Shown: positions 1,763-15,671 of the stretch, one piece after another
Position numbering within the stretch: position 1 is the first letter of the stretch
How the letters are laid out: every line of letters begins with the position of its first letter
Source: an uncultured Dokdonella sp.
Lineage (GTDB): Bacteria; Pseudomonadota; Gammaproteobacteria; Xanthomonadales; Rhodanobacteraceae
Assembly (NCBI GenBank): GCA_934526015.1
Contig: CAKSZY010000038.1
Span: forward strand, 1 to 16,104
Direction of reading: 5' to 3'
Length of the DNA stretch: 16,104 nt
Made by a program: the position numbers and the translations under genes
The notes under the pieces: model-generated
Seen by the model: the letters and a program-made list of their open reading frames with translations, nothing else
Database searches by the model: none
Told to the model about the DNA's origin: nothing

Positions 1763-1891
1763 CGGCATTCCGGGCCGCATCCCCGCGGCGCGCGCATGAT
1801 ACGCGAGCCGCCGCACGCCCATGACTTCATGGACGGGCGCTGCCGGTCGGCTTGTCTAGAATGGCCATCCCGCCCCGCAGGAAGTTCCCCC
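1763..1891. promoter_or_regulatory. Divergent promoter region prfA / M16 operon with a central dyad
   Basis: Reading left, a TATCAT -10-like hexamer (complement of 1796-1801) lies 34 bases before the prfA ATG, but has no good -35. Reading right, TAGAAT at 1857-1862 is a good -10 for the M16 operon, 29 bases before its ATG, again with a poor -35. Between them is the dyad CCATGA-CT-TCATGG (1819-1832), placed so that a bound protein could affect either promoter. The -10 boxes are direct observations; promoter and operator roles are inference. Confidence 0.4.
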
Positions 1892-3280
1892 ATGTGCAAG
1901 CGTGCGATTTCCTGGGTGCTCGCCCTGGCCTTGCCGACGTCGGCGCTGGCTGCCGACGGCGACCGCGACCGCTGGCAGTTGCCGGTGGCGGTGAAGACGC
2001 TCGACAACGGCCTGACCGTCGTCGTCAGCGAAGACCGCACCTCGCCGACGATCGGCGTCAGTGTCGTCTACCACGTCGGCATGCGCCTCGAACCGAAGGG
2101 CCGCACCGGCTTCGCCCACCTGTTCGAGCACCTCATGTTCCAGGGAACGCCGGAGGCGCCGAAGGGCGTGTTCGACCGCGTCATCAGCGGCGGTGGCGGT
2201 TTCAACAACGGTTCCACCCGCGGCGACTACACGAATTACATCGAGACCGCGCCGGTCTCCGCGCTCGAGCCGATCCTCTGGCTCGAGGCCGACCGCATGA
2301 AGACGCTCGACTTCTCGGCGGAGAACCTCAAGAACCAGCAGGACGTGGTCAAGGAAGAGATCCGCGTCAACGTGCAGAACCGGCCCTACGGCCTGTTCTT
2401 CTGGGACGGCCTCAATGCGCTGGCCTTCTCGAAGTGGGAGAACAACCACGACGGCTACGGCAGCTTCACCGACCTCGAGAACGCGAAGCTCGACGACGTG
2501 CGCGCGTTCCACCGCGACTTCTACGGCCCGAACAACGCGGTCATCGCGATCGCCGGCGATGTCGAGGCGGACGCGGTGTTCGCCCTCGCCGAAAAGTACT
2601 TCGGCGGCATCGCCCGGCGCGCGGTGCCGACGGGTACCGACGTCGACGAGCCGCTCAACACGAAGGAAAAACGCGAGAAGCAGACCGACGCATTGGCCCA
2701 GGTGCCGGCGTTCGCGGCCGGCTGGAAGATGCCCGCGCGCGGCAGCGCCGACCACGCGCCGATGGCCGTGCTCGCCCAGGTGCTCGTCGGCGACACCGCC
2801 TCGCGCCTCTACCAGGGCCTGGTCAAGGGTCGCGAGCAGGTGCTCAACATCGACGGCGGGCTCAACTGGCCGCTCGGCGATGCCTGGGACTACGACGGTC
2901 CGACCCAGTTCGTGCTGTTCGGCCTGTACAAGCCGAACGCGTCGATGGATGCGATCCTCGTCGCCATCGACGAGGAAATCGCGCGCGTGGCGAAGGACGG
3001 CGTAGACGCGGCCACCCTGGCCCGCGTGAAGACGAAGATGATCGCCGATTACTACAACGGCCTCGATGCCTTCATCTCGCGCGCCGACGCGCTGGCCAAG
3101 GCGCAGGTGCTGTGGGGCGATGCGACGGTCGTCAACCGCGTGCCGGGCTGGATCGATGCAGTGGCCAGCGACGACATCCGGCGGGTTGCCGCCAAGTATC
3201 TGGTCGCCGCCAACCGCGTCGCCATCGACCGCGTGCCAGCCGTTGTCGCGGCGCCGTCCGCCGCTCCGGAACAGAAGTGA
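1892..3280 (+). CDS. Secreted M16 family zinc metallopeptidase, catalytic subunit
   Basis: M16B peptidases degrade or process peptides in a closed chamber formed by two half-shells. This 462-residue product carries the inverted zinc motif HLFEH at residues 76-80, with the distal acidic ligand in the KEEIR segment about 75 residues later (E155/E156). The metal site therefore looks intact. Residues 1-20 form a signal peptide (KR, a hydrophobic run, ALA before ADGD), placing it in the periplasm. The C-terminal half is an M16 inactive-fold domain; its equivalent of the substrate-binding R/Y region looks degenerate (VKGREQVLN). The start at 1892 has AGGAAG about 8 bases upstream, whereas the frame stays open much further upstream without coding character. 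It lies 8 bases before the second M16 gene, so the two are probably translated together. The physiological substrate is unknown. Confidence 0.93.
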   Translation: MCKRAISWVLALALPTSALAADGDRDRWQLPVAVKTLDNGLTVVVSEDRTSPTIGVSVVYHVGMRLEPKGRTGFAHLFEHLMFQGTPEAPKGVFDRVISGGGGFNNGSTRGDYTNYIETAPVSALEPILWLEADRMKTLDFSAENLKNQQDVVKEEIRVNVQNRPYGLFFWDGLNALAFSKWENNHDGYGSFTDLENAKLDDVRAFHRDFYGPNNAVIAIAGDVEADAVFALAEKYFGGIARRAVPTGTDVDEPLNTKEKREKQTDALAQVPAFAAGWKMPARGSADHAPMAVLAQVLVGDTASRLYQGLVKGREQVLNIDGGLNWPLGDAWDYDGPTQFVLFGLYKPNASMDAILVAIDEEIARVAKDGVDAATLARVKTKMIADYYNGLDAFISRADALAKAQVLWGDATVVNRVPGWIDAVASDDIRRVAAKYLVAANRVAIDRVPAVVAAPSAAPEQK

Positions 3281-3288
3281 GGCCGCCG

Positions 3289-4701
3289 ATGAAGACCCTG
3301 ACGCTTTCCCTTGCCCTGCTGTGCACCGGCAGCCTTGCCGTCGGCGCATCGGCCGCCGAGCCGTTCGTGCCGAAAGACATGCCGAAGTACGGCGCCGACA
3401 AGCCCCTGCCGGTCCCCGAGATTGCCAGGAAGACGCTCGCCAACGGCCTGGTCGTGTGGGTGCTGCCGCGTACCGGCGGCAACCCGAAGGTCGACCTCGT
3501 GCTCGCCGTGCGCGGCGGCAAGGCGGCCGATCCGCGCGAGCGCCCGGCGATGTCGGACCTGCTGGCCGACCTCCTCGTCGAGGGCACGCCGAGCCGCAGC
3601 TCGGCGCGCATCGCCGAAGAACTGCAGGCGCTCGGTGCCACCCTTGCCGCGAATGCCGGCAACGAGGGCATCAGCCTGCGCGCGGCCGGCATCGCCTCCG
3701 CTGCCGAGGCGCTGACCCTGCTGCTCGCCGACGTCGCCCGCCATGCCGAATTCCCGGCGGCCGAGATCGAGCTGGCCAGGGGCAATGCGCTGCAGGCACT
3801 GAAGGCCGCCGAGGCCGAACCCGACTACCAGGCCGGACAAGCCTTCGACGGCGCCGTCTATGGCGACCACCCGTACGCACGCTCGCGGCCGACCGAGGGG
3901 TCGATCAAGGGCACCGATCGCGCGGCCCTCGTCGCCGCGCACGCGGCGCGCTTCCGTCCCGACCGCGCCCTGCTGGTGATCGCCGGGCCGATCACCGCCG
4001 AACGCGGTTTTGCCGTCGCCGACAAGGCATTCGGCGACTGGAAGGCGAGCGGCAAGGCGATCGCCGACACGCCGCCGGCGAAGGCGGATCGTCCGCCGCA
4101 GCGCGTCTTCGTCGAACGTGCCGGCAGCGTGCAGTCGGCCGTGCGCATCGGTCGCCCGGCCTTCGTCGCCGGCAGCGCCGACGAAATTCCGGCGACGATC
4201 GCCAACGCGGTGCTCGGTGGTGATTTCTCCAGCCGCCTGTCGCGCGTACTGCGCGAAGAGAAGGGATACACCTACGGCGCCTACAGCGGTTTCTCGGCAT
4301 ACCGGGTCGGTGGCGCGTTCGTGGCCTCCGCCGACGTGCGCAACGAAGTCACCGGCGCCGCCGTCGGCGAGTTCCGCAAGCAGATGCAGGGGCTGGTCGA
4401 CACGCCGGTCGAGGCCGAGGAGCTGACCCGCGCGAAGCGTTCGACCGCGGGCAGCTACCTGTTCCGCAACCAGTTGCAGGGCGCGGTCGCCGCCTCGCTG
4501 GCGAACGGCTGGCTGCTCGGCCGCCCGCCCGAATACCTCGGCGAGTTCGTCGGCCGCACCAACCAGGTCACCGCGGCCGAAGTGCAGGCGATCGCGAGGA
4601 AGTACTTCGATCCGGATCAGCTCAGCATCGTCGTGGTCGGCGACAAGGCCGTGGCGGCGCAGCTCGAGCCGTTCGGAAAATTCGCTGCGAAAGCCGACTA
4701 G
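3289..4701 (+). CDS. Secreted M16 family protein, non-catalytic partner subunit
   Basis: 470 residues, with signal peptide MKTLTLSLALLCTGSLAVGASA cleaved before AEPF. It aligns with the M16 fold, but where the catalytic subunit has HLFEH this protein has DLLAD (residues 90-94), so all three zinc-site residues are lost. The second domain keeps the conserved stretch LSRVLREEKGYTYG (about 316-330), whose Arg and Tyr bind substrate in M16 enzymes. Its neighbour has the reverse pattern. The pair thus looks like the known split M16B heterodimers, in which one chain supplies zinc chemistry and the other supplies substrate binding; the Sphingomonas Sph2681/Sph2682 pair is the precedent I recall. A GAGG sits in front of the ATG, overlapping the end of the first gene. 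The last base of the stop codon is the first base of the cloverleaf element. Confidence 0.92.
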   Translation: MKTLTLSLALLCTGSLAVGASAAEPFVPKDMPKYGADKPLPVPEIARKTLANGLVVWVLPRTGGNPKVDLVLAVRGGKAADPRERPAMSDLLADLLVEGTPSRSSARIAEELQALGATLAANAGNEGISLRAAGIASAAEALTLLLADVARHAEFPAAEIELARGNALQALKAAEAEPDYQAGQAFDGAVYGDHPYARSRPTEGSIKGTDRAALVAAHAARFRPDRALLVIAGPITAERGFAVADKAFGDWKASGKAIADTPPAKADRPPQRVFVERAGSVQSAVRIGRPAFVAGSADEIPATIANAVLGGDFSSRLSRVLREEKGYTYGAYSGFSAYRVGGAFVASADVRNEVTGAAVGEFRKQMQGLVDTPVEAEELTRAKRSTAGSYLFRNQLQGAVAASLANGWLLGRPPEYLGEFVGRTNQVTAAEVQAIARKYFDPDQLSIVVVGDKAVAAQLEPFGKFAAKAD

Positions 4702-4985
4702 GGATGTTCTGAACAAGTCTGCACATGCGTCACCGCACTGCCTGCGCGCAGATCAAGGCGGGGCGACGAAGGCAGACTGGACGTCTGTCGAGTCGACCCG
4801 CCGCGGAGCTGCGCGCAGGCAGTGCGGCCCCAACTGCTTGAATCCAATGACGGGGTGATGTCCACGAGGCCCTCCCGCCGGCGCGCGCGGCTTGCCCAGG
4901 CAACCCGCCTCAGCGGCGCCACGCACACCACCGGGCGAGCCTCGTGGACATCATGCCGCATGCGCAGACTTGTTCAGAATATCCC
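4701..4985. repeat. 285-bp element with nested inverted repeats (cloverleaf / three-way junction fold)
   Basis: The outer arms 4701-4729 and 4957-4985 are inverted repeats matching at 27 of 29 positions (start GGGATGTTCTGAACAAGTC). Inside lie two further hairpins. Arm A has a perfect 19-bp stem, 4733-4751 with 4809-4827, continued by 4757-4766 with 4793-4802 (9 of 10) and capped by CAGAC/GTCTG at 4773-4787. Arm B has a 15-bp stem, 4856-4870 with 4939-4953, continued by 4880-4884 with 4916-4920, and capped by 4887-4895 with 4900-4908 around a CCAG loop. A short CCCC/GGGG pairing (4828-4831 with 4852-4855) sits between the arms. Most bases can be paired. No protein gene is credible inside, and no target-site duplication is visible. 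A non-autonomous mobile element or a structured RNA are the main alternatives. Confidence 0.85.
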
Positions 4986-4991
4986 TGGACG

Positions 4992-5017
4992 CCTGCAGGG
5001 TCCTTCGATCCTGCAGG
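4992..5017. terminator. Strong hairpin between convergent M16 operon and pilR
   Basis: CCTGCAGG at 4992-4999 pairs with CCTGCAGG at 5010-5017, and the stem continues inward to 11 pairs including one G-T, closed by a CTTC loop. It lies between two converging genes, where a bidirectional terminator is expected. There is no U-rich tail on either strand, so intrinsic termination is not proven. Confidence 0.4.
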
Positions 5018-5060
5018 GATCCGCGATCGGGAATCGGGCCGGAATTGCGCCGACCCGGCC

Positions 5061-6494
5061 TCACTCGATGCCGAGTTTCTCCAGGCGGTAACGCAGCTGG
5101 CGCAGGGTCAGGCCGAGCTGGCGCGCCGCCGCGGTGCGGTTCCAGCGCGTGGCGTCGAGTGCCTTCATGATGACCGCGCGCTCGGTCTCGGCGACGGTGG
5201 CGGCGAGATCGCCGACATACGCCGAATCCGGCAGCATGTGGGCCGGTGCCTCGGTGGCCGGCGGTGGTGCCGGCGCCGGCGCCACCGCCGGCTGCAGGCT
5301 GCTGGTGTTGGCCCAGCGTTCGGCGTTTTCGCCGGTCACGCCGGGCGCACGCGCCACCAGGCGCAGGTCCTCGGCGCTGATCGTGCCGTTCTCGCACAGG
5401 GCGACGGCGCGCTCGAGCACGTTTTCGAGCTCGCGCACGTTGCCGGGGAAATCGTAGGCGAGCAGGGACTTCAAGGCATCGGGCGTCAGTCGCGCCGGTG
5501 TCGTGCCGGCTTCGCGACCGAGCCGCTCGAGCACGCGCCCGGCCAGCTTGGGGATGTCGTCGCGGCGTTCGCGCAGCGGCGGCACGCGCAGTTCGATGAC
5601 GTTGATGCGGTAGAACAGGTCCTGGCGGAAGGCGCCGAGGTCGACCAGCTTGGCGAGGTTCTTGTGCGTGGCGGAGAGGATGCGCACGTCGACCGGGACC
5701 TCGGCGCGCGCGCCGATCGGCCGCACGGCCTTTTCCTGGATCACGCGCAGCAGCTTGACCTGCATGTGCACCGGCAACTCGGCGACCTCGTCGAGGAACA
5801 GGGTGCCGCCGTGGGCGGCCTGGAACAGGCCTTCCTTGTCCGCATGGGCACCGGTGAAGCTGCCCTTCTTGTGGCCGAAGAACTCGCTCTCCATCAGCTC
5901 CGAAGGGATCGCGCCGCAGTTGACCGGCACGAACGGCGAGGCCGCGCGCGGGCCGAGTTCGTGGATCAGCCGCGCGACCAGCTCCTTGCCGACGCCGGAT
6001 TCGCCGGCGATGTAGACCGGCGCCTGGCTGCGCGCGACCTTGGCGATCGTGCCGCGCAGTTCGTTCATCGCCGCCGAGTCGCCGATCAGGCGCGACTGGC
6101 TGGCGTCGCCGGTCGAGCGCTTTTCCTCGGACAGCTTGAGTGCGGTCTGCACGAGCCGGCGCAGCACGTTGATGTCGACCGGCTTGGAGACGAAGTCGAA
6201 GGCGCCGGCCTTCAGCGCGACGACGGCGGCGTCGACGTTGCCGTAGGCGGTGATCATCGCCACCGGCGTTTCCGCGTAATTGGCGGCGATGTGCTCGATG
6301 ATGTCGTGACCGGTGCCGTCGGGCAGGCGCATGTCGGTGAAGCAGAGCGCATAGCGCTGCTCGGACAGGCGGGTCTTGGCTTCGGTGACGGTGGCCGCCG
6401 TCTCGACGATGAGGCCCATGCGGCCGAGTGTCAGGGTCAACAGCTCGCGGATGTCGCGTTCGTCGTCGATAACCAGTGCGTAGTGCTTGCTCAT
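5061..6494 (-). CDS. pilR: PilR-like sigma-54-dependent response regulator (NtrC family)
   Basis: A 477-residue transcription activator. The receiver domain (about 1-120) has acidic D10/D11, the phosphorylated D54 in FTDMRLPDG, and K104. The AAA+ domain has Walker A GESGVGKE (164-171), the sigma-54 contact loop GSFTGA (211-216) and Walker B GGTLFLDE (229-236). A Pro/Ala-rich linker leads to a Fis-type helix-turn-helix ending [16 protein letters not shown] sequence and [11 protein letters not shown]. The [18 protein letters not shown] and [12 protein letters not shown] stretches and the C-terminus agree closely with PilR, which activates type IV pilin transcription when phosphorylated by PilS. 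I chose the ATG at 6494 because the receiver begins [12 protein letters not shown] and GGGAAGG lies upstream. No pilS or pilA neighbour is present, so the assignment rests on sequence resemblance; another NtrC-family regulator of the same subgroup is possible. Confidence 0.87.
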
Positions 6495-6528
6495 GCCTTC
6501 CCGGGGTGAGGGGTGAGCCATCTGGCCA

Positions 6529-6557
6529 AGGGTAAGGATGTTGCGGTCAATACTCAA
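6529..6557 (-). promoter_or_regulatory. Predicted sigma-70-type promoter of pilR
   Basis: On the minus strand TTGAGT (6552-6557) and TACCCT (6529-6534) are separated by 17 bases, and transcription would start some 25-30 bases before the pilR ATG. Match is partial at both boxes. A sigma-54 site was looked for here and not found with correct spacing. Confidence 0.4.
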
Positions 6558-6784
6558 TTCCATTCGGCCAGCGCAGCGCTGCCCGGCTGCCCGGCGGGAT
6601 CGGCGATGGCGAACCGCAAGCGTGCCGGGATGCGATGAAACCCCGCCGGGACCGCCGCTGCCGATGCCGGCCGGCATGGAAATCAATCAGTTGGACAGTG
6701 ACGCAAGAGCGGAATCGCTCGCGTCATCGGCGATGACGGGCCGGTGGTGGGCAGGAGTCCAGCGGAGCGCGGGTGCGTCGAAGC
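6558..6784. other. hemA-pilR intergenic region with several dyads
   Basis: No gene is visible. An inverted repeat CCCGGCGGG (6590-6598) with CCCGCCGGG (6642-6650) and a perfect palindrome ATGCCGGCCGGCAT (6664-6677) occupy the middle. Closest to hemA, GACGC-AA-GAGCG-GAAT-CGCTC-GCGTC (6700-6725) forms a good hairpin on either strand and is the best candidate for a hemA transcription stop, though it lacks a U-run. Confidence 0.45.
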
Positions 6785-15288: not shown

Positions 15289-15381
15289 GCGCGGCTCCGT
15301 TTTCCGGAGGGCGGGATGCCCGGCGTCCGCCACTTCCGGGTGGCCGGCCGAGAGGTTGCAGAGAGTCGAAAGCGAGTTCGT

Positions 15382-15453
15382 GGAAGGATACCCAAGCGGC
15401 CAACGGGGGCAGACTGTAAATCGGCTGGCTCACGCCTTCGTTGGTTCGACCAG
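15382..15453 (+). pseudogene. Broken tRNA-Tyr copy
   Basis: From GGAAGGA the sequence follows the intact tRNA-Tyr at 15586 with only four substitutions over 68 bases, including an unchanged D arm and GTA anticodon loop. After TTCGA the similarity stops: there is no 3' T-stem strand, no TCCTTCC acceptor strand and no CCA. One substitution also puts a mismatch in the anticodon stem (TCTGC to TCGGC). It would be transcribed in the operon but cannot form an acceptor stem. Confidence 0.88.
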
Positions 15454-15585: not shown

Positions 15586-15671
15586 GGAGGGATACCCAAG
15601 CGGCCAACGGGGGCAGACTGTAAATCTGCTGGCTTACGCCTTCGGTGGTTCGAATCCACCTCCCTCCACCA
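15586..15671 (+). tRNA. tRNA-Tyr (anticodon GUA)
   Basis: Class II tRNA of 86 bases. Acceptor GGAGGGA (15586-15592) pairs with TCCCTCC (15661-15667), discriminator A and encoded CCA. Anticodon stem GCAGA/TCTGC with loop CTGTAAA, anticodon GTA at 15620-15622. A long variable arm follows, and the T arm is GGTGG-TTCGAAT-CCACC. First intact tRNA of the operon ending in tuf. Confidence 0.97.

Follow-up and report, generated by a model that had tools for sequence, protein, structure and literature searches.

A cloverleaf-forming 285-base element behind an M16 peptidase gene of Dokdonella, a probable MITE-like repeat

Directly behind an M16 peptidase gene in a contig of an uncultured Dokdonella sp. 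lie 285 non-coding bases (positions 4701-4985 of the window, i.e. of the whole stretch of 16,104 nucleotides analysed here) that can fold almost entirely upon themselves. The locus raises the question whether such a structure is a mobile repeat, a structured RNA, a target of recombination or a local accident of pairing. The features discussed are listed here with their coordinates in the window.

3289..4701, plus strand: M16 peptidase gene, whose TAG stop codon (4699-4701) overlaps the first base of the element
4701..4985, no strand assigned: whole cloverleaf element, with core limits set by arms and fold; the real ends may lie 1-2 bases farther out
4701..4729, plus strand: left outer arm (terminal inverted repeat), 27 of 29 matches against the right arm
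4957..4985, minus strand: right outer arm (terminal inverted repeat), pairing with the left arm
4733..4827, plus strand: hairpin 1, with a perfect 19-bp base stem (4733-4751/4809-4827), more stacked pairs and a small loop
4828..4855, plus strand: small, weaker hairpin (CCCC...GGGG) in the middle, at the junction, seen both when the RNA is folded and when the opposite strand is folded as DNA
4856..4953, plus strand: hairpin 2, with a perfect 15-bp base stem (4856-4870/4939-4953) and an irregular upper stem
4698..4973, minus strand: open frame of 91 codons across the element; the same frame is called as a protein in the database entry P0002 (below)
5061..6686, minus strand: sigma-54-dependent response regulator (Pfam), the convergent neighbour

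Fold and genomic setting

A preliminary description of the locus had reported a 29-bp outer inverted repeat with 27 matches, enclosing two hairpins with perfect base stems of 19 and 15 bp. All three were recovered at 4701-4729/4957-4985 and at the stem positions listed above, and since the fold adds a third hairpin (4828-4855), the element is a four-way cloverleaf. In this fold, 226 of the 285 bases are paired. The description had also held that the pairing exceeds what a GC-rich sequence gives by chance, and this was borne out: the RNA fold has an energy of -200 kcal/mol, as compared with a mean of -119.5 (sd 4.8) for shuffled sequences, corresponding to z = -16.6 with 0 of 200 shuffles equally good, and the DNA fold of the other strand reached z = -15.7, again with 0 of 200. 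Among 159 segments of 285 bases taken across the 16 kb at steps of 100 (mean -137, sd 16), the element was the most stable. As its GC content is 67%, against 69% for the whole window, composition does not explain the fold. The 13-base core of the arms is present in the 16 kb at the two ends of the element only. Hairpins 1 and 2 were also considered as copies of each other, which was ruled out (best blastn piece 19 bases, E 0.62).

The element begins, as previously noted, on the last base of the M16 stop codon and lies between convergent genes, the M16 peptidase on the plus and the response regulator on the minus strand. To its right follows a 75-base spacer with another hairpin, and then the end of the regulator gene at 5061. 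This separate 11-bp hairpin (4992-5017, immediately right of the element) may mark the end of one of the two convergent genes; a search of 4600-5100 found 0 promoter-like or terminator-like sites and 0 Rho-independent terminators (G+C-rich stem followed by a T run). The nested 285-bp layout is, as had been remarked, unlike a simple REP or terminator. Pfam supports two M16 genes, the regulator, hemA, a TPR protein and prfA; the other genes of the window, assigned by reading the open reading frames, we take to be lolB, ispE, prs, rplY, pth and ychF. The two M16 peptidase genes form a tandem pair on the same strand (1823-4701). In the six neighbouring stretches read by Pfam, no transposase domain was found, as expected for a non-autonomous element, and neither was a reverse transcriptase or a Y1 transposase.

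The nearest relatives of the M16 protein besides itself (P0004-P0013) have 76-85% identity and include proteins labelled Dokdonella sp. (P0005, 82%) and Xanthomonadales bacterium (P0008, 81%), by which the host is probably related to Dokdonella. In the 12 nearest relatives (P0004-P0015) the last residue is lysine; in the M16 protein of the window it is aspartate, followed by TAG. This only hints that an insertion may have altered the last codon of the gene, and as the more distant relatives P0016-P0018 do not end in lysine either, the final codon is not fixed in the family.

A second copy and the search for more

The 91-codon minus-strand frame probably does not encode a real protein; it was searched against 5.8 billion proteins. 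The search spanned lengths of 0.55 to 1.75 times that of the query only, so that copies inside longer or shorter open reading frames would be missed. It returned 7 candidates with one match at E up to 10, namely P0002 (87 residues, E 3.9e-39, 94% identity over 85% of the query), an entry with 2 member sequences on 3 contigs, from the sources ncbi and ena, and with no Pfam domain; the plus-strand frame had no match among 47 candidates. Of 77 codons compared between P0002 and the element, 72 agree, with the start codon among the 5 differences; leaving it out, 72 of 76 comparable codons agree. Judged by this agreement, P0002 is an open reading frame read from another copy of the same element DNA. 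The preliminary description had proposed looking for homologous copies, and because of P0002 the reading as a local accident was rejected; the element is most likely not one.

The similarity extends from about 4931 down to about 4703 and breaks off no more than a base or two from 4701-4703. There P0002 continues from the last codons of the element (...CSEHP) into LNRSGFRLPD and then a stop, while in the window the codon next to those matching CSEHP is already a stop. The tail of P0002 was placed as antisense of 27 M16 C-termini (that of the window and those of 26 relatives) in three frames, with placements of at least 4 residues. None was fully compatible, the best partial placements being those on P0017 (5 of 6 residues) and P0015 (4 of 5) in the most permissive frame, and a P0002 copy at the same locus, antisense to the M16 end, was rejected for these 27 proteins. 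In another frame, the flank in the window itself reads LVGFRSEF and has the tripeptide GFR in common with the P0002 tail; as one or another tripeptide of the tail occurs in 505 of the 4588 48-base segments of this sequence, this match is not telling. Because the similarity stops at the tip of the arm and the P0002 flank fits no M16 C-terminus, we infer that the element is discrete and has at least one further copy. Coincidence of ends and arms, which had been proposed as the mark of such an element, was thereby found at the left end of one copy. The P0002 copy is probably located at another site; it may lie in the same genome, or in the same intergenic region with an insertion that spared the gene there.

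Further copies were sought at the nucleotide level. A plasmid collection of 7.3 billion bases contained no copy of the element. In plasmids and phages, blastn gave short matches only, none of them covering 80% of the query (best 21% and 13%, chance-like), and no copy was seen in plasmids, phages or viral contigs; tblastn in plasmids gave 0 matches. Patterns of the arm matched isolated sites in 7 + 1 + 1 stretches. At these nine sites, the inverted partner that agreed best with the 13-base core in a range of 3 kb had 8-11 matches, with 8-12 for random 13-mers (40 per locus, same nine loci), and the best inward-facing partner at 100-600 bases had 8 or 9, compared with 13 in the window. One of the sites, L008, was the only match of the arm pattern in genome contigs, with 305 bases downstream within the stretch compared; this single genome-contig scan says little, since it required a 20-base arm almost letter for letter. 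The two-arm pattern and the stem-1 pattern had 0 matches each in viral contigs, and of 20 pattern matches in viral contigs none was confirmed. The 14-base stem-2 pattern was too unspecific, matching at least 120 stretches, and both stem-2 arms together were found in none of 135 loci examined. No transposon with the ends of the element was seen when the right arm was searched in plasmids. The CTGAACAAGTC-bounded repeats that the preliminary description mentioned for related genomes were accordingly not recovered, the plasmid, phage and viral arm scans and the one genome-contig scan yielding isolated sites with no fitting partner. In the literature searched, TTCTGAACAAGTC was not found, and a limited search including texts with TGAACAAGTC revealed no such element by title or the start of the abstract.

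Mobility, structured RNA and other explanations

We regard the element as probably a discrete, MITE-like and non-autonomous element of a Dokdonella lineage, moved in trans by a transposase acting on its arms. The 29-base outer arms would serve as terminal inverted repeats for a transposase encoded elsewhere, putatively of the DDE type. The element would have landed between the two convergent genes, directly behind the M16 stop, and insertion would explain this position; read-through transcripts of the M16 gene would then carry the cloverleaf, which could stabilise the mRNA or help to end it. Of the features of MITEs, terminal inverted repeats (27/29) and small size with no transposase gene are present, 285 bp being too short for one. 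The MITE-like option, already raised in the preliminary description, is the best supported of those named there, given a second copy whose similarity stops at the arm tip, at one end and in one copy; it is from this one boundary that mobility is inferred. Against mobility stands that a single other copy was found, known as a protein and at its left end. Flanking direct matches of at least 3 bases with symmetric ends were CTAG/CTGG (3 of 4), GAC/GAC and GCC/GCC, none of them convincing. The CTAG target and the end sequence had led us to consider an IS5-family origin, for which the target is YTAR; this assignment was dropped because the P0002 codons beyond the arm did not match YTAR when read by hand. 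Also against the mobile reading, bacterial MITEs are described in PMC2229807 and PMC10969869 as AT-rich for the most part and shorter than about 200 bp, and the element is GC-rich and longer.

It is unlikely, albeit worth weighing, that the element is instead a structured RNA or 3'-UTR element under selection, transcribed from the M16 side and not, or no longer, mobile, in which the cloverleaf would protect or process the mRNA (e.g. as an RNase III substrate) or act as a small RNA. The four amino-acid differences in P0002 each require at least one base change. With one change each, two fall on bases unpaired on the plus strand (4781, 4835), and the other two (4759, 4924) are C to T and convert a plus-strand C-G pair to U-G, so that 0 of 4 inferred changes break a predicted plus-strand pair. 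A substitution taken at random among those that change the protein leaves the structure intact with a probability of 0.35-0.48 for transition weights of 1 to 4, and the chance of four out of four is 0.015-0.054, depending on the transition bias. On the minus strand, the same two C-to-T changes produce A-C mismatches; if the structure matters, it is therefore that of the plus-strand (M16-sense) RNA, as these changes would break minus-strand pairs. Together this points weakly to a selected plus-strand fold, or to luck, since the changes number just four and synonymous ones stay hidden, only those that alter the protein being visible. Transcripts of MITEs have been reported to regulate adjacent mRNAs (PMC2229807), which would suit such an RNA. 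Against it, no Rfam family was found in the element at its threshold: at the gathering score the whole window gave three tRNAs only, and around the element there were 6 matches at E up to 10, all far under their gathering scores, the best being MIR918 (26.8 of 268 bits, E 0.009). These weak matches (miRNA precursors, a betaproteobacterial sRNA, a snoRNA) were rejected as far below thresholds. The lack of promoter-like or terminator-like sites at 4600-5100 likewise speaks against an RNA gene, and the differing flank of P0002 suggests dispersal.

With an appreciably smaller chance, the locus would exemplify a new kind of mobile repeat in which the internal cloverleaf is itself selected, the plus-strand RNA or the folded strand being needed for spread or effect. 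If this were true, the cloverleaf would be needed, beyond the terminal repeats used by the transposase, for spread or for an effect on the preceding gene. Slightly less probable again is an old, non-mobile intergenic palindrome inherited at the same place by a few relatives, with the P0002 flank as diverged intergenic DNA. For such a palindrome speak that only 1 relative was found, that the P0002 tail was compared with M16 coding ends and the window's own flank only, and that GFR is common to the tail and this flank, in another frame; tripeptide sharing is, however, frequent by chance (above), and about 95% codon agreement up to the arm tip with no in-frame match beyond it looks like a boundary rather than gradual divergence. 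Least probable, in our estimate, is that single-strand recombination or a protein that handles palindromes (cruciform, retron-like or IS200-like) uses the element as its substrate and recognises the folded strand itself. Very strong folding of both strands, DNA included (z = -15.7), would favour it; the six neighbouring stretches read by Pfam yielded none of the enzymes in question (reverse transcriptase, Y1 transposase), and near-perfect terminal arms are what double-strand-acting transposases use.

Relation to known repeats, and other repeats in the window

The MITE-like element was compared with known small repeats as described in PMC2229807, PMC10969869 and PMC3733652. QMITE2 of Coxiella has terminal repeats of 23-29 bp and direct repeats of 7-9 bp (PMC10969869). 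The element resembles it in its long terminal inverted repeats (29), its non-coding core, its very stable transcript fold and its intergenic location; it differs from QMITE2 (about 160-200 bp, summed from parts) in being GC-rich and 285 bp long, in having no clear duplication, and in a core made of separate long hairpins. CIR of Caulobacter and Brucella are about 110 bp long, with two arms and a linker, and are listed with no terminal inverted repeats, whereas the other small bacterial repeats form a stem loop by pairing of their 5' and 3' ends and have no arms (PMC2229807). Two long hairpin arms with a linker between them are common to CIR and the element, which, unlike CIR, has a terminal stem of 29 bp that closes off the arms to make a cloverleaf, placing it outside the CIR description. 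It thus joins the terminal repeats of the end-paired repeats with the arms of CIR. The Correia/NEMIS repeats of Neisseria (107-155 bp) have terminal repeats of 24 bp, similar in length to those found here, and TA ends with target duplication, and RNase III, which cuts double strands, has been proposed to act on the stem-loop of their transcript (PMC2229807); the element, by contrast, does not have TA at both ends and shows no clear duplication. REP palindromes are 20-40 bp long and of high copy number (PMC3733652); the element shares with them intergenic position and strong folding, and differs from REP/BIME as a nested 285-bp unit rather than a single palindrome. A GC-rich element in which a long terminal stem encloses two long hairpins standing apart is absent from the passages of PMC2229807 consulted, and its layout raises the question whether the inner fold has a function or is cargo or a relic. 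Such repeats are traceable through spurious open reading frames in protein databases.

The window contains further repeats. At 60-520, there are two direct repeats of 177 bases that are 92% alike; inverted repeats (GGGGAGAAGGTGCGGC.../CCCCTCATCCGG...) lie inside them as well as between them. A distant blastn search with these repeats found similar stretches in 162 plasmid records, at no fewer than 460 places, all of them in Sinorhizobium, Rhizobium, Shinella, Neorhizobium or Allorhizobium. We take the repeats to resemble the RIME repeats of rhizobia, found here in a probable gammaproteobacterium. At 15373-15449, a stretch of 77 bases resembles the 5' portion of the tRNA-Tyr gene (15586-15671) at 92% and lies 204 bases upstream of that gene; ARAGORN calls the downstream one only, and the 77-base stretch may be a tRNA relic or the trace of an integration event.
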